Of a stretch of DNA of 64,000 nt, positions 54,657 through 64,000 are shown one piece after another (the first letter of the stretch is position 1; each line of letters begins with the position of its first letter). The position numbers and the translations under genes were made by a program. Origin of the DNA: Oligosphaera ethanolica. Its GTDB lineage: Bacteria > Verrucomicrobiota > Lentisphaeria > Oligosphaerales > Oligosphaeraceae. The notes under the pieces are model-generated. The model searched no databases. It was not told the DNA's origin and saw only the letters and a program-made list of their open reading frames with translations. The stretch spans positions 3,322,227-3,386,226 of the forward strand of contig NZ_JAUSVL010000001.1 of assembly GCF_030814695.1 (NCBI RefSeq), in the 5' to 3' direction.

Positions 54657-54684
54657 TTGACAAAAATTTGTGTTATATTATTTT
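54657..54684 (+). promoter_or_regulatory. Promoter of the IS transposase
   Basis: TTGACA (54657-54662) is followed after 16 bases by TATTTT (54679-54684), 33 bases before the likely ATG. Confidence 0.5.
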
Positions 54685-54717
54685 CTATCTGTACTTAAGT
54701 ATTGTAGGCTAGTTAAA

Positions 54718-56385
54718 ATGGGGCAGACTATGAAATACCGGGTTCAGCAATTCAAGAAGACGCAGCACGGGAAAATCTACCATTATTCTTGGATCGGGTA
54801 CAGCTACCGGACAGCGAAGGGCACGCCTACCTTCAAGCGTGTGGCCAGTTTGGCTGGGCTTCCTCCCGAAGCGGTCAAGGCCATCAGCAACTCTCTTTCG
54901 TCAAATGGCGAATCCAGTGACACCAATCTCAAGGTCGAGTTTTTGTCGGCCATTCCGCTTGGCGCGGAGGCCGTGGCGCATCACTTTGCTGATGAACTAG
55001 GCATCCTTGACGCGCTGGCTTGCCTGCCCGAACGGGATCGAAAAGTGGTTCTCGCCTTGATCCTTGATCGAGTCGTGGAGGCCTTTCCGCATTCCCGGAA
55101 GTCGCTGTTTGAAAACCTGCCAGGCAGCGGTCTGTCCCGGGTATGCGGTTTGGACGACGAGGATATCAAGCTGGAGCAGATGTATTATGCTCTGGATCAT
55201 TTGTTTCCCTGCCAGGATACCATCGAACACTATCTGTTCAAACGGAATCATCCGAACCAATCGCGCATGTTCCTGTACGACATCACCAGCAGTTATTTTG
55301 AGGGCAATGCGTGCCCGCTGGAGGCTTTCGGCTACAATCGTGATCACAAGCAAGGCAAGAAGCAAATCGTCATCGGCATGCTCACCGACCAGGCTGGCTG
55401 TCCCGTAAGTGTGGAGGTCTTCGAAGGAAACACCAGCGACCAAAGCACCGTCATGGACAGAATTGACTCGATGAGGAAAAAGTTCGGGATCGAGGAAATG
55501 GTCTTCATTGGAGATCGGGGCATGCTGACGCGGGCGAGACGCAACGACCTGACTGCCAGGGAATATGAGAAAATCAAGTACATCACGGCCTTGAGTCGCG
55601 ACGAGTTCACCCGCTTTGTCGAGGATGACGATCACCCGTTGCAGCTGTCTTTGTTTGACCGCACCAGGCTGGTGCAAGTGTCGCATGACGGAATCAACTA
55701 TGTGCTATCCTACAACCCCGAGTTGGAGGAACGCAACTGCGCCGACCGCGATAGAATGCTCGAAAAAACGGAGGCCGTCCTCAAAGGTATTGAAGCCAGT
55801 GTGCAAAAAGGGCGTCTGCGTCAGGAAAAACTCATCGCCAAAAGGTTGTTCTCCAAGTTCGACAAATGGAAATGCGCGCGCTTCTTCGATGTCGACTATG
55901 GCGAAGGACGTTTCAGCTATCGCCGCAAGGACGAACTCATTGAGTCCTACCGCGCCATGGACGGCTTCTATGTGTTTACCACCGATATCCTGGACATAAG
56001 CGCCGAGCAGACACGGGATGAATACCGTGGACTTCAGCAAGTGGAACAGACCTTTCGAACCATGAAGACGACGGATATCTTCATGCGCCCCATTCGTCTG
56101 TGGAATCCGGAGCGGGTCAAGGCGCACATTTTTGTCTGCATGCTGGCATACATGATCATCTGGAAGGCCCGCCACAAACTGGCGGAATTCACGGAGCCGC
56201 AAGGAGACCTGCGTGTTTCATTGCAAACGGCCTGGAGCAAGCTGGGCGAGCTGCAAATAGGGAAAATCAAGTTGGGAGACGAAGTCCATGAGCAGTTGAG
56301 CCAGCCGGAGGCTCAATGCCGGCAGCTACTCAAGCTGGCCGGATTGAGCGCATCCGCCATCAGCAAAAGTTTCCTACGTGGGTAG
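54718..56385 (+). CDS. IS1634-family transposase
   Basis: 555 residues from ATG 54718 (ATG 54730 is an alternative). DDE residues can be placed: first Asp in FLYDITSSYFEG, second Asp in MVFIGDRGMLT, Glu in YRGLQQVEQTFRTMKTTDI. The stretches GYNRDHKQGKKQIVIGMLTD and RPIRLWNPERVKAHIFVCMLAYMI are typical of the IS1634 (IS1549) group. It appears intact, so the element may be active. No second copy occurs in this window. Confidence 0.93.
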   Translation: MGQTMKYRVQQFKKTQHGKIYHYSWIGYSYRTAKGTPTFKRVASLAGLPPEAVKAISNSLSSNGESSDTNLKVEFLSAIPLGAEAVAHHFADELGILDALACLPERDRKVVLALILDRVVEAFPHSRKSLFENLPGSGLSRVCGLDDEDIKLEQMYYALDHLFPCQDTIEHYLFKRNHPNQSRMFLYDITSSYFEGNACPLEAFGYNRDHKQGKKQIVIGMLTDQAGCPVSVEVFEGNTSDQSTVMDRIDSMRKKFGIEEMVFIGDRGMLTRARRNDLTAREYEKIKYITALSRDEFTRFVEDDDHPLQLSLFDRTRLVQVSHDGINYVLSYNPELEERNCADRDRMLEKTEAVLKGIEASVQKGRLRQEKLIAKRLFSKFDKWKCARFFDVDYGEGRFSYRRKDELIESYRAMDGFYVFTTDILDISAEQTRDEYRGLQQVEQTFRTMKTTDIFMRPIRLWNPERVKAHIFVCMLAYMIIWKARHKLAEFTEPQGDLRVSLQTAWSKLGELQIGKIKLGDEVHEQLSQPEAQCRQLLKLAGLSASAISKSFLRG

Positions 56386-59256: not shown

Positions 59257-60687
59257 TTACAGCCCCAGCTGTTTCATGCGTCGCCAGATGGTCGTGCGGT
59301 CGACGCCGAGACGCCGGGCCAGTTTACTGCGATTGCCGCCGCATTCGGCGAGCAGCGCCTTGAAGGCTTCCGGGCTGTCAGGCATGGCGTTGCTTTTGGC
59401 GTCATCCAGGCGTGGGTGGTCGGCAGCGTTGTTGGTGGTTTTGGCGAGGCGCTGCTTATCGGGACAATAGGCGTGTCTTAGTTCGACCATGCGTAATTCC
59501 ATGGGCAGATCGAAGAGCCCGATGAGCTTGTCTCGGCAAGTAACGAAGGCGTGTTCGATGGCATTTTCCAGTTCGCGGACATTGCCTGGCCAGCAGTAGT
59601 CCATCAGGCAATGCAGGGCCTCGTTGTCCACGCCGGCGATAGTGCGGCCAGTGATGCGATTGAAGTGCTCAATGAAGTGCGTTACGAGCAGGGGCAAGTC
59701 GCCCTTGCGTTCGCGCAGTGACGGCAACAGAATGGGGAAGACCCTGATGCGGTAATAGAGGTCTTCACGAAATTGACCGTCAAGTACCATCTGATGCAGA
59801 TCGCGGTGGGTCGCGCAGATGACGCGAATGTCAACATGGTGCGGTTTGGAATCACCGACCCGTTCGAACGTGCGTTCTTGCAGTACGCGGAGGAGTTTGA
59901 GTTGGCTGAGGAGGCTGATGTCGCCAATTTCGTCGAGGAAGATGGTGCCGCCATTGGCAAGTTCAAAACGGCCGGGTTTGTCCTGCACTGCGCCGGTGAA
60001 AGCGCCCTTGACATGGCCGAAGAGTTCGCTCTCCAGGAGTGTTTCGGAGAGCGCTGAACAGTTGACGCGGACCAATGGCTGGTCACGCCGGGCGCTCGCG
60101 TGGTGGATGGCTTCAGCGACGCGTTCCTTGCCCGTGCCCGTTTCGCCATGCAGTAGCACGGTCGCATCGGATGCCGCAGCCAGGTGAATGCTGCGATAGA
60201 CGTCCTGCATGGCGCTACTTCTGCCGGTCAGCCCAGGTGGTGGCTCGTGGAGGAGTTCTTTTTCGCCGAGGACGCTGAGTTGCTGTTCCAGGCGTTTGAC
60301 CTTGCGCAAGTCCGTAAAGCACTCAACGAGGCCTTTGATAGTGCCGTGTTGGTCGCGGATGACGCCGACATTGCGGAGCACGGGCAGGAAGCTGCCGTCG
60401 GCGCTGCGGATTTCACATTCGATGCTGCGTTCATCGAGTTCGCCGCGAAGCATTGGGCACTCGTCGGGGAGTTTGCGTGGGTCGCCGCACTGATTGCAGT
60501 GGAGGATGTTGCAGGGTTTGCCGCAAACGCGGTCGTGGGTGAGGCCGGTGAGTCGTTCCATCATGCGGTTCCAAGCGCGGATGTGGCCACGTGCGTCCAC
60601 GACCATAACGCCGTCGGGGATGGTTCTGAGGAGGATGTCAGCGGAAAGCCAGTCGAGGTCGGTCAGGGAGTCGGGGCATCTGTTCAT
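59257..60687 (-). CDS. Sigma-54-dependent transcriptional activator with PAS domain
   Basis: 476 residues from ATG 60687. A TTG start at 60816 would add 43 residues, but would place the TGTTGCA repeats inside the gene. A PAS domain at about 12-120 has Cys residues (KPCNILHCNQCG, and ECPMLRGEL) that could hold a metal or sense redox. The AAA+ domain has Walker A GETGTGKE, the sigma-54 contact loop ESELFGHVKGAFTGA, Walker B GTIFLDEIGD, and an Arg finger region. A Fis-type HTH ends the protein (NRSKLARRLGVDRTTIWRRMKQLGL). It controls sigma-54 promoters; the target may be the divergent thioredoxin-efflux operon, though I find no clear -24/-12 site there. Confidence 0.93.
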   Translation of the reverse strand: MNRCPDSLTDLDWLSADILLRTIPDGVMVVDARGHIRAWNRMMERLTGLTHDRVCGKPCNILHCNQCGDPRKLPDECPMLRGELDERSIECEIRSADGSFLPVLRNVGVIRDQHGTIKGLVECFTDLRKVKRLEQQLSVLGEKELLHEPPPGLTGRSSAMQDVYRSIHLAAASDATVLLHGETGTGKERVAEAIHHASARRDQPLVRVNCSALSETLLESELFGHVKGAFTGAVQDKPGRFELANGGTIFLDEIGDISLLSQLKLLRVLQERTFERVGDSKPHHVDIRVICATHRDLHQMVLDGQFREDLYYRIRVFPILLPSLRERKGDLPLLVTHFIEHFNRITGRTIAGVDNEALHCLMDYCWPGNVRELENAIEHAFVTCRDKLIGLFDLPMELRMVELRHAYCPDKQRLAKTTNNAADHPRLDDAKSNAMPDSPEAFKALLAECGGNRSKLARRLGVDRTTIWRRMKQLGL

Positions 60688-60702
60688 GGGTGTGGGACCT
60701 GG

Positions 60703-60751
60703 TGTTGCAGGTGTGTTGCAGATGTTGCAGTGGATTCTGTTGCATGCAACA
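60703..60751. promoter_or_regulatory. TGTTGCA repeats and palindrome, candidate activator sites
   Basis: TGTTGCA occurs at 60703-60709, 60714-60720, 60723-60729 and 60738-60744; the last is part of a perfect 14-bp palindrome TGTTGCATGCAACA (60738-60751). Three half-sites and one whole site in 49 bp, just upstream of the sigma-54 activator start and about 170 bp from the divergent thioredoxin gene, suit an upstream activating sequence or an autoregulatory site. Confidence 0.6.
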
Positions 60752-60919
60752 TAGCCCGTAAAAGGACCTTTGTCACTATGCAAGCCACAAGTTTCGTTTT
60801 GGCAGCTTGTTACCAACGATCAATCGTTTTGGCATGGAAGCTGATATAGAGCGATCGTAGTTGGCACATAGCCAAGACGGGTTGCACAAAAGAATCACAA
60901 CGAAAGCACGAGGTGGACA

Positions 60920-61249
60920 ATGTCAGAGCACATCCAGGAATTGAATGACCGTAGTTTTCAGGCCGCTGTGAGTGCGGGTGTGGTATTGGTGGATTTTTGG
61001 GCGCCGTGGTGTGGTCCCTGTCGCATGCAAGGTCCGATTTTGGAGAGTGTCGCCCAGCAGCTTGGCGCGGCGGCGCGGATCTATAAAGTGAATGTTGATG
61101 AGGCGCCGCGGACGGCCACCAGCTTTGGTATTCAAGCCATTCCCACGCTGGTGTTGCTGAAGGACGGCAAGGTCGTCAAGGTGATGACCGGCGTGCAGCA
61201 GGCCGCAGTGCTGATCAAGGCGGTGGCAGACGCTTCTGGGCGGGCATGA
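60920..61249 (+). CDS. trxA: Thioredoxin
   Basis: 109 residues with the WCGPC active site (30-34), FWAPWCGPCRM, the cis-Pro loop FGIQAIPTLVLLKDG, and no signal peptide. Length and motifs are those of classical thioredoxin 1, a cytosolic disulfide reductase. GAGG 6 bases upstream supports the ATG. It is followed 80 bp later by the RpiB-TolC fusion and then by a membrane-fusion lipoprotein, an unusual setting. Whether it is the main thioredoxin of the cell cannot be judged. Confidence 0.95.
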   Translation: MSEHIQELNDRSFQAAVSAGVVLVDFWAPWCGPCRMQGPILESVAQQLGAAARIYKVNVDEAPRTATSFGIQAIPTLVLLKDGKVVKVMTGVQQAAVLIKAVADASGRA

Positions 61250-61329: not shown

Positions 61330-63324
61330 ATGAAGAACGGACATGAAATAAGGCAGCCGCGTTGGCGGGCATGGCGCATGGGTCTGGCCACGGCGTTGGC
61401 CATGGTTGTGGGCCTGGCTGGTGTGGCGATGGGCGCGTCGGCGACGGCGGGTTCGGCGCCATCGGTAAAGCGCGTGATAGCCATTGGTTCGGTGGCGAAG
61501 GCCTTTGCGTTGAAGGAAGCCGTTGAGCAGGATTTGCTTGCGGCGGGCCACGAGGTGATTGACAAGGGCTGTCATCGTGCCGATGATACTGTGAGCTACA
61601 CGGCGATTGGCGAAGCCGTGGCCCACGAACTCTATGCCGGCCGGGCGGAATTTGGCGTGGTATTCTGTAATTTTGGCTGCAGCGCATTGACTGGTGTGAG
61701 CAAATTCAAGGGCGTCATCGCCTTTGCTTGCGAAAGCGACCAGCCGGCGGAGATGTCCCGCCGCGCCAACGGCGCCAATGTGCTTTGCTTGGGGCAGTCG
61801 ACGGTGACGGTGGAAGAGGCCAAGGCCATCGTTCGCCGTTTTATCAGCACGGAATTTGTTTCTGACAGTGCGGAGGACGCCGTTAGTGTCGCTCGTCGGC
61901 AAGCCAGTGCGACGGTGAAGAACCGCGGCGAGGTGCCACGGCATGACGTCTGTGCGTTGCCCTTGGACATGATGACTCCCAATGCGTCGGTGACGACGGG
62001 GGTGGCAGGGGGGGAGACGGCAGTAATGATCGTTGGCGATGGCGAAGACGGCGCTGGTGGACTGGACTTGTCACAATGTATTGCCATGGCCTTGGCGAAC
62101 AATCCGGGGCTATCCCGTGAATCGTGGCAGGTGCGGGGTGCTGAGTCTGCGCATGACGTTGTTAAAGCCGCGCGCTTGCCGCAGCTTGCGGCGCAGGCCG
62201 GCGCGAGTTTTTATCGTGAAGACCGGATGATCAGTCCCCGTCGTGAAGGCGACGCGAGTGTTTTGGCGTTTAGTGACGAGTTGGCGTCGGCGCAGCTGGT
62301 CATGCAGTTACCGTTGTACACTGGGGGTCGTTTACGCAGCAGCGTGCTGGCGGCAGAGCTGACCAGCCAGGCCATGCGCCGGCAGTTTGCGCATAGTCGT
62401 GCGGAGTTGGTCTTCAACGTATCGAGTCTCTACTACGCGATTTTGCGTCAGCGCGAGCACATTGGTTCGCTGGAGTTTGCCCGCGGCGTTCTTGAACGGC
62501 ATCGGCAGGTCATGACGGACATGCTGGCGGCGCGCAAGGCCGCGCAGGTCGATGTGCTGCGCACCGAGGTGCGGCTGGCCGATCTGGAACAACAGCTGCT
62601 GCGCGAAACATATCGCCAAGACGTGCAATGCATGGCGATGGCGGCATTGTTGGGCATCGAGGGCGGCTGTGACAACTTCCACGTCAATGGCCAGCTGTCT
62701 GCGCGTAGTGATGTCGTTAGCGACGCCGATTTTTTGTTGCAGGACGCGCTGGCCAGCCGGGCTGATTACCAGGCGTTGTTGGCGCGCGTAGAGGCCCAGC
62801 GGCAACAGGTGCGTGCAGCGCGGGCGCGGCGTTATCCTGATCTGTCTTTTCGGGCGAGCTATGGCAACAGCTGGGACATGGAGGACAGCGAGGCCAACGA
62901 GGTGGGCGAGCTTGGCGTCGTAGTCAGCATGCCGTTGTTCAGTGGCGGTGGCATTTCTGCTGCGATAGCGCGTGAACAGGCCCTGCTGCTTGCGGCCGAG
63001 GAGTCGCTGCGGGAAAGTCGTTTGCGTATACAGGTCGAGTTGCAGAGCGCTCTCGCGGACATTCATTCTACCCATGCGCGTTATGACGTGACGAGTAAGT
63101 CCGTACAGCAGGCCGGTGAGTCATTGCGTATTGAGCAGGAGAAGTACAAGCAGGGGAAGGGGTCCATTACGGACGTGCTTGATGCCCAGTCGGCGCTGTT
63201 GTCGCTGCAAACGAGCTGCTATGCGGCTCTGGCAGATTGGAATACCGCCCTGGCTCGCCTCACCTTGGTGTCGGGGCGCTACGACGATGCTCCGCGTGAA
63301 GACGCGGGCGCCGCGGCTCACTAA
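61330..63324 (+). CDS. Exported RpiB-like domain fused to TolC-type outer-membrane factor
   Basis: 664 residues. The N-terminus has basic residues and a hydrophobic signal (LATALAMVVGLAGVAMGASA). Residues about 47-178 follow the RpiB/LacAB pattern (RVIAIGSVAKAFALKEAVEQDLLAAGHEVIDKG; EFGVVFCNFGCSAL; GANVLCLGQ; AKAIVRRFISTEF), with Cys113 at the place of the catalytic Cys. The phosphate-binding residues and the GTG loop are altered. Then a linker, and from about 240 an outer-membrane efflux protein (LDLSQCIAMALANNPGL; MQLPLYTGGRLRSSV; GELGVVVSMPLFSGGGISAAI; DVLDAQSALLSLQTS). The TolC part forms an outer-membrane channel with a periplasmic tunnel; the RpiB part would lie in the periplasm. GAAAGG precedes the ATG. 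Confidence 0.85.
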   Translation: MKNGHEIRQPRWRAWRMGLATALAMVVGLAGVAMGASATAGSAPSVKRVIAIGSVAKAFALKEAVEQDLLAAGHEVIDKGCHRADDTVSYTAIGEAVAHELYAGRAEFGVVFCNFGCSALTGVSKFKGVIAFACESDQPAEMSRRANGANVLCLGQSTVTVEEAKAIVRRFISTEFVSDSAEDAVSVARRQASATVKNRGEVPRHDVCALPLDMMTPNASVTTGVAGGETAVMIVGDGEDGAGGLDLSQCIAMALANNPGLSRESWQVRGAESAHDVVKAARLPQLAAQAGASFYREDRMISPRREGDASVLAFSDELASAQLVMQLPLYTGGRLRSSVLAAELTSQAMRRQFAHSRAELVFNVSSLYYAILRQREHIGSLEFARGVLERHRQVMTDMLAARKAAQVDVLRTEVRLADLEQQLLRETYRQDVQCMAMAALLGIEGGCDNFHVNGQLSARSDVVSDADFLLQDALASRADYQALLARVEAQRQQVRAARARRYPDLSFRASYGNSWDMEDSEANEVGELGVVVSMPLFSGGGISAAIAREQALLLAAEESLRESRLRIQVELQSALADIHSTHARYDVTSKSVQQAGESLRIEQEKYKQGKGSITDVLDAQSALLSLQTSCYAALADWNTALARLTLVSGRYDDAPREDAGAAAH

Positions 63325-63416: not shown

Positions 63417-64000
63417 GTGAACATGCATCGCATAATCAATCGTGTGTGTCCGGCGCTGCTCAGTGCTGGTATGGCCGTAGTCCTAGCCGCATGTGGCCAG
63501 GCCAAGACCGAGATGACGAAGAGCAAGCCCACCGTGCGGGTGGATGTGGAAAAGGCGCGCCTGGAGATCATGGTGGAACGCCTGCAGACGACGGGTGATG
63601 TTATCGCTACCAACACCGTTGTGTTGGAATCGACCGTCGAGGGGCCCATATCGTTTTGTCCATGGCGCGAGGGCGACATCGTGGACACGGCTGGAGAGAA
63701 GCTCATTGTGATTGAGCGGCCCCTCTACCGCCAGGAATTGGCAGCGGCAGAGGCGGTGCTAGCGGTTGCGCAGGCCAAGCTGGACGACTTGTTGGCTGGC
63801 GCTCGGCCCGAGGAGATCGCCCAGGCTCGTGAGACAGTCAAGCATCTCGCGGATTGTACGGCGTTTGCCAAAGCGGATTTCGATCGCGTCCAGAATCTAG
63901 TGACCAGCGGGTCGTTGCCGGCGGAAGCCGCCGAGAAAGCCCGCGTCGATTACAGCAAATGCCACACGCAGCATGAATCGGCCAAAGAAAAGCTGGCGAT
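63417..64000 (+). CDS. RND/HlyD-type membrane-fusion lipoprotein, N-terminal part
   Basis: The frame stays open to the right edge; 194 codons are present. GTG 63417 has AAGGAG 7 bases upstream; ATG 63423 is the alternative. A lipoprotein signal ends in VVLAACG (lipobox), so the mature protein is lipid-anchored. It continues with VEKARLEIMVERLQTTGDVIATNTVVLESTVEGPI, the barrel-sandwich (lipoyl-like) part, and a long alpha-helical hairpin (RQELAAAEAVLAVAQAKLDDLLAGARPEEIAQARETV). These match periplasmic adaptors of tripartite efflux pumps. It follows the TolC-type fusion by 92 bp; the inner-membrane pump is expected beyond the window. Confidence 0.88.
   Translation, partial: MNMHRIINRVCPALLSAGMAVVLAACGQAKTEMTKSKPTVRVDVEKARLEIMVERLQTTGDVIATNTVVLESTVEGPISFCPWREGDIVDTAGEKLIVIERPLYRQELAAAEAVLAVAQAKLDDLLAGARPEEIAQARETVKHLADCTAFAKADFDRVQNLVTSGSLPAEAAEKARVDYSKCHTQHESAKEKLA

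Follow-up and report, generated by a model that had tools for sequence, protein, structure and literature searches.

A predicted periplasmic RpiB-family domain fused to a TolC-type outer-membrane channel in Oligosphaera ethanolica

Introduction

In the RpiB of Leishmania, Cys69 acts as the base, Thr71 as the proton shuttle, and the intermediate is held by the backbone NH groups of residues 70 to 74; ring opening falls to His102 and phosphate binding to His11, Arg137 and Arg141. The D45N, C69S, H102N and E149A variants of this enzyme (LdRpiB) are inactive (PMC4783025). The catalytic cysteine of RpiB is reactive and can be oxidised to sulfenic acid (PMC3212906). Another PF02502 protein, SqwI, belongs to the sulfo-transketolase layout for sulfoquinovose (PMC9594981, PMC11659671).

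In the outer-membrane channel OprM the N-terminus emerges at the equatorial ring and bears a lipid anchor (PMC8277102). TolC can carry a periplasmic accessory at the channel, YbjP (PMC13095208, PMC13082787); it is a separate DUF3828 lipoprotein with no known relation to the domain described below, and it serves as an analogy only.

The window analysed here, a stretch of 64,000 nucleotides from Oligosphaera ethanolica, encodes a protein that joins an RpiB-type domain to a channel of this kind. With TolC, OprM and VceC it shares two OEP repeats, the fold and an operon with adaptor and RND permease, but it has an N-terminal globular domain and a linker between signal peptide and channel that unfused homologues lack. 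With RpiB and LacAB its domain shares the Pfam family, the fold and the position of the catalytic cysteine, but the Asp-His pair, His99/102, Arg137/141 and the active-site loop are not kept and the domain is predicted to be periplasmic. Each part belongs to a known kind; what appears new is their combination and the rewriting of the loop. No description of RpiB-OEP fusions or of this operon type was found in the open literature searched.

Results and discussion

The initial annotation had proposed that an exported RpiB-fold domain is joined to a TolC-type channel at this locus, and the sequence bears this out. Positions 61330 to 63324 of the forward strand form a single uninterrupted reading frame with an ATG start, encoding 664 residues in which a signal peptide, a LacAB_rpiB domain, a low-confidence linker and a TolC-type channel (OEP-OEP) follow one another (Table 1). 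Residues 50 to 181 match PF02502 with E = 5.3e-30 (104.6 bits against a Pfam cut-off of 24.7), two stretches of the channel part match OEP (Pfam, E = 3.9e-58), and solved RpiB structures were matched by phmmer with E down to 9e-16. The hydrophobic leader (Kyte-Doolittle maximum 2.2 over 16 residues; 2.7 in the equivalent segment of a second fusion, G040, described below) is predicted to be a signal peptide, which would place the domain in the periplasm; pLDDT in this region of the AlphaFold2 model is mostly below 50. The two OEP repeats, the TolC fold, the signal peptide and the partner genes for adaptor and transporter mark the C-terminal part as a TolC-type outer-membrane factor.

Table 1. 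Features of the fusion gene and its surroundings (window positions unless a contig or locus is named)
Feature	Position	Strand	Basis
PAS/sigma-54-type regulator, divergent	59257..60816	-	NifA/NorR/PrdR-type matches; G040 counterpart in the same position, 64% identical
Cytosolic thioredoxin (WCGPC), first gene of the unit	60920..61249	+	TIGR01068, 112 bits against a cut-off of 96.8
Predicted signal peptide, residues 1-40	61330..61449	+	basic n-region, hydrophobic segment 17-38 with core 17-35, A-x-A near 36-40
RpiB/SqwI-like Rossmann domain, residues 47-178	61468..61863	+	PF02502 E = 5e-30; AF2 pLDDT mostly >90; Foldseek TM 0.76-0.80
Altered active-site loop C113-N-F-G-C117	61666..61680	+	alignments; G040 fusion has the same loop, the SqwI group CGSGTG
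C-terminal helix and tail, residues 179-210	61864..61959	+	like tails of stand-alone SqwI-type proteins (..EARDEM.ARGE..)
Flexible linker, residues 211-243	61960..62058	+	19% identity between fusions; no second signal peptide
TolC-type outer-membrane factor, two OEP repeats, residues 244-664	62059..63324	+	OEP E = 4e-58; Foldseek to TolC, VceC, OprN
Periplasmic adaptor (MFP) lipoprotein, runs past window end	63417..63998	+	RND_mfp, 174.5 bits
RND permease after the adaptor	G000:C1 about 3386968-3390063		RND_permease_2, 697.8 bits
Paralogous RND pump cluster, window genome	L104:1862-11367 (G000:C1 about 3824861-3834366)

The AlphaFold2 model of the whole protein was built on 35 aligned proteins derived from the window and the loci; because RpiB relatives were among them, the modelled fold is not independent of the sequence match. 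Domain and channel had pLDDT mostly above 90 and the linker (residues 204 to 231) below 50, and with a pTM of 0.62 the position of the domain relative to the channel is of low confidence. Foldseek ranked TolC, VceC and OprN first for the whole protein and RpiB lower. The domain modelled alone reached a pLDDT of 91.6 and matched LacB (4lfk_B, TM 0.80) as well as RpiB (1o1x, 2vvr), with TM values of 0.80 by query and up to 0.92 by target. The predicted fold is thus RpiB-like, as first supposed, and with the Pfam score it places the domain in the RpiB/LacAB family by descent and fold.

A search for other proteins with RpiB followed by OEP, which the initial annotation had suggested, was successful: the same architecture and operon occur in G002, a sister species with near-identical DNA, and in G040, a member of another family within the same order. 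The G002 frame differs from that of the window in 27 codons (NG86 dN/dS = 0.0027/0.049, ratio 0.054 over the whole frame), the G040 fusion is 51% identical to that of the window, and neither contains an internal stop. Identity between the window and G040 fusions is 57.6% in the domain core and 56.5% in the channel, compared with 19% in the linker; the domain is therefore held as tightly as the channel. The fusion is under purifying selection. Searches of 198 genomes of the class and of 388 sampled across the phylum turned up no further RpiB-OEP fusion, only stand-alone or differently fused RpiB, and a scan of genome contigs with short exact peptide patterns returned the sister MAG and ordinary RpiB only. 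The fusion is found in three genomes (the window genome G000, G002 and G040), as two independent lineages, metagenome-derived, and the fused loop is defined by two independent sequences only.

The domain had been taken for a plain RpiB relative, and here the initial annotation has to be revised. In a tree, the fused pair and the SqwI group are separated from RpiB with support of 100/100, the fused pair being the sister of the SqwI group and not nested within it (90/78). Closest to the exported domain are single-domain, signal-peptide-free proteins of the same order, class and phylum, with GSVVKGF and CCGSGTGAS motifs and a tail EARDExxxRG...ETL. They are encoded next to split transketolases, SQ-isomerase-like proteins (NF048012, E = 8e-51, under its cut-off), sulfoacetaldehyde-dehydrogenase-like proteins (NF047625, E = 6e-152, under its cut-off) and DASS transporters. 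We regard these relatives as SqwI-type cytosolic enzymes of sulfoquinovose sulfo-transketolase clusters, a name that rests on gene context. Given the tree, the common C-terminal tail (still discernible in the fusion as RGEVP) and the gene context, the domain is closest to SqwI-type isomerases and not to ordinary RpiB. It shares with SqwI the fold, a GSxxKxF start, the GCH, CES and CLG motifs and the EAR..RGE tail; SqwI, however, is cytosolic and single-domain, has a CGSGTG loop and is encoded in sulfosugar clusters, whereas the fusion domain is joined to a channel, predicted to be exported, has CNFGCS in the loop and lacks pathway genes beside it.

The ordinary RpiB of the window genome is a separate gene, fused to serine hydroxymethyltransferase. 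No second stand-alone PF02502 gene was found in this genome, its SQ isomerase relatives are only 31% identical, and the sulfoquinovose sulfo-transketolase pathway is absent from it; G040 carries a SqwI cluster as well as the fusion. A SqwI-type gene may have been duplicated, gained a signal peptide and been joined to a channel gene before or during spread between families. Both the architecture and the ancestry of the fusion are well supported.

Several other arrangements of these genes were observed. The fusion of RpiB with serine hydroxymethyltransferase (GlyA, by eye) lies at L001:1411-3198 (G000:C1 about 471146-472933), and long frames resembling it are present in most of the order's genomes. 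In other genomes of the phylum, L083 has an RpiB domain followed by an apparent deoxyribose-phosphate aldolase (MIDHTILKPEAT), and L085 and L087 look to be of the same type. Clusters of the SQ sulfo-transketolase type are widespread in the phylum (L042, L043, L045, L048, L049, L106, L108, L109), with a split transketolase and SqwI, an SQ isomerase in many and DASS and sulfoacetaldehyde dehydrogenase in some.

The initial annotation was right that the cysteine is kept and the rest of the loop altered to CNFGCSAL: C113 aligns with Cys69 of LdRpiB and follows strand 4, as the catalytic base should. Other parts of the machinery of a functional isomerase are not found. The CGTG-type loop is replaced (N114, F115, C117), with Thr71 as F115 and the backbone NH region 70-74 as N114-S118; the Asp-His pair (Asp10, His11) is V55-A56, Asp45 is S89, His99/102 is A146, and Arg137 and Arg141 have no Arg counterpart. 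Most of the phosphate-binding and ring-opening residues are missing already in the SqwI group; the change from CGSGTG to CNFGCSA is seen in the fusions alone, and both have it in the same form. The domain core has five cysteines (81, 113, 117, 134 and 153), all conserved between the two fusions; four of them also occur in SqwI-type enzymes, C117 being the sole one that is new. Since the RpiB cysteine can oxidise to sulfenic acid, C113-x-x-x-C117 could, we infer, form a redox or metal-binding pair. With the loop, the ring-opening His, the Asp-His pair and the phosphate-binding Arg changed or absent, the role of the domain is, as had been suspected, probably non-enzymatic.

The fusion gene stands in a unit of thioredoxin, fusion, lipoprotein adaptor and RND permease, with a divergent PAS/sigma-54-type regulator. 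The thioredoxin is kept upstream in G040 and in a further genome, G045; the G040 contig has regulator, thioredoxin and fusion and ends before adaptor and RND. The RND permease is closer to drug-type permeases than to CusA/CzcA, and no ACR3, arsenic or sulfosugar genes adjoin the fusion itself. A pattern search upstream of the thioredoxin gave no sigma-54 promoter in the window or G040 and one near-consensus site in G045, but the pattern is common (42 matches per 64 kb at two mismatches) and was not used as evidence. Upstream of the region, a transposase-like ORF was noted by eye at window positions 54670-56385.

An orthologous pump without the RpiB domain is present in G045 (L100, G045:C1771), where the RND is 80% identical to that of the window operon over the 350 residues on the contig, the adaptor 59% and the thioredoxin 61%. 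The order there is ACR3-like permease with CBS domains, channel, thioredoxin, exported DUF302 lipoprotein, channel, UspA-like protein, adaptor and RND, so that the DUF302 lipoprotein, between thioredoxin and channel, has the place of the domain in the fusion operon. DUF302 is absent from G000, G002 and G040, so the domain does not merely accompany it as an extra partner. Other RND relatives (68-74% identical) adjoin ACR3-like-CBS permeases; the ACR3-like proteins in three clusters score 82-87 bits against the ACR3 cut-off of 282.8. The second, paralogous RND pump of the window genome adjoins a full ACR3 (378.6 bits) and a SaoE/SO_0444-like permease and is probably part of a metalloid export cluster. 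From G045, the ACR3-adjoining relatives and this paralogue it follows that the pump type exists without the domain and that its family leans to metal(loid) clusters.

The fusion would best be explained as the outer-membrane channel of a tripartite RND-type efflux pump, a subunit that has acquired an exported and catalytically repurposed isomerase domain. Once exported and assembled, the channel trimer would carry three copies of this domain, each tethered to its equatorial ring by the flexible linker. There the domain may serve as an accessory module without enzymatic function; binding of a small ligand in the periplasm, or a reaction of the cysteine pair, might tune pump assembly or opening. 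We give about even chances to a ligand- or thiol-binding, non-catalytic periplasmic accessory domain with some effect on the pump; sensing, gating and the ligand itself are what we infer for it. Given that related pumps adjoin a thioredoxin and ACR3-type permeases, the first candidate ligand class is a metal(loid) or oxidant that reacts with thiols. A bolder proposal, that a dead sulfosugar isomerase has become a periplasmic sensor whose C113 and C117, on the channel's collar, detect a thiol-reactive metal(loid) or oxidant and gate the pump at its channel, is improbable. To our knowledge, no such level of control, the gating of an RND pump at the outer-membrane channel, is known.

Alternatively, the domain could be a passive structural module that takes no ligand and stabilises the trimer, or keeps the channel spaced or anchored within the periplasm, much like YbjP or the OprM lipid anchor. 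The exported DUF302 lipoprotein that takes the domain's place in the orthologous operon is in keeping with this, as are the N-terminal anchoring of OprM (PMC8277102) and the reported 3:3 binding of YbjP to TolC (PMC13095208). Such a module would not obviously need an identical CNFGCSA and all five cysteines in two families, however, and RpiB proteins are dimers or tetramers whereas the channel is trimeric; we consider it somewhat unlikely.

In a narrower form of the preferred explanation, the domain would be a thiol-based metal(loid) or oxidant buffer, its cysteines capturing As(III), Cu(I) or a similar soft ligand and passing or reporting it to the pump. The gain of C113-x-x-x-C117, the conservation of C81, C134 and C153, the thioredoxin in the operon and the ACR3-type permeases beside pump relatives all fit, but the ACR3-like proteins lie far under their cut-off, the RND resembles drug-type permeases more than CusA/CzcA and the cysteine positions may not meet in space, which leaves so specific a role doubtful at best. 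A working periplasmic enzyme, isomerising a sugar-like compound that the pump possibly expels, would make sense of the kept catalytic-base C113, Tyr90 and Asn147 and of a pocket fold that is intact in the model, and some proteins of the fold use non-phosphorylated substrates (4u8f, among the Foldseek matches). Against it, N and F have taken the places of the enediolate-stabilising Gly and Thr in the CGTG loop, Ser89 and Ala146 stand where LdRpiB has Asp45 and His102, two residues whose substitution abolishes its activity (PMC4783025), the operon is without a sugar gene and the pathway is absent from the genome; catalysis is accordingly hard to credit.

Finally, the initial annotation had warned that an internal start near residue 230 might betray two genes joined in error. 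Such a start is present: Met233 in the linker is preceded by purine-rich AGGGGGGGAGACGGCAGTA-ATG, with a GGGGAG stretch 9 bases upstream. The misjoin itself does not stand. A product begun at Met233 would have no signal peptide, the linker being too little hydrophobic to be one, in contrast to the unfused homologous channels examined, in each of which a hydrophobic leader of its own immediately precedes the OEP part; the corresponding G040 linker has no ATG, GTG and TTG codons only. That a frameshift, lost stop or wrong start joined two genes, the channel really being made from Met233, is with the same architecture in another family and a low dN/dS across the whole frame so improbable that it can be set aside.

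Conclusions

Being small and confidently predicted, the domain lends itself to a direct test of its role. The fusion is a clear example of a cytosolic enzyme fold relocated, on the predicted topology, to the periplasm with a rewritten active site. Outer-membrane factors are usually viewed as passive exit ducts; a conserved globular domain with a ligand pocket on the channel suggests that the duct itself can bear a sensor or accessory module.
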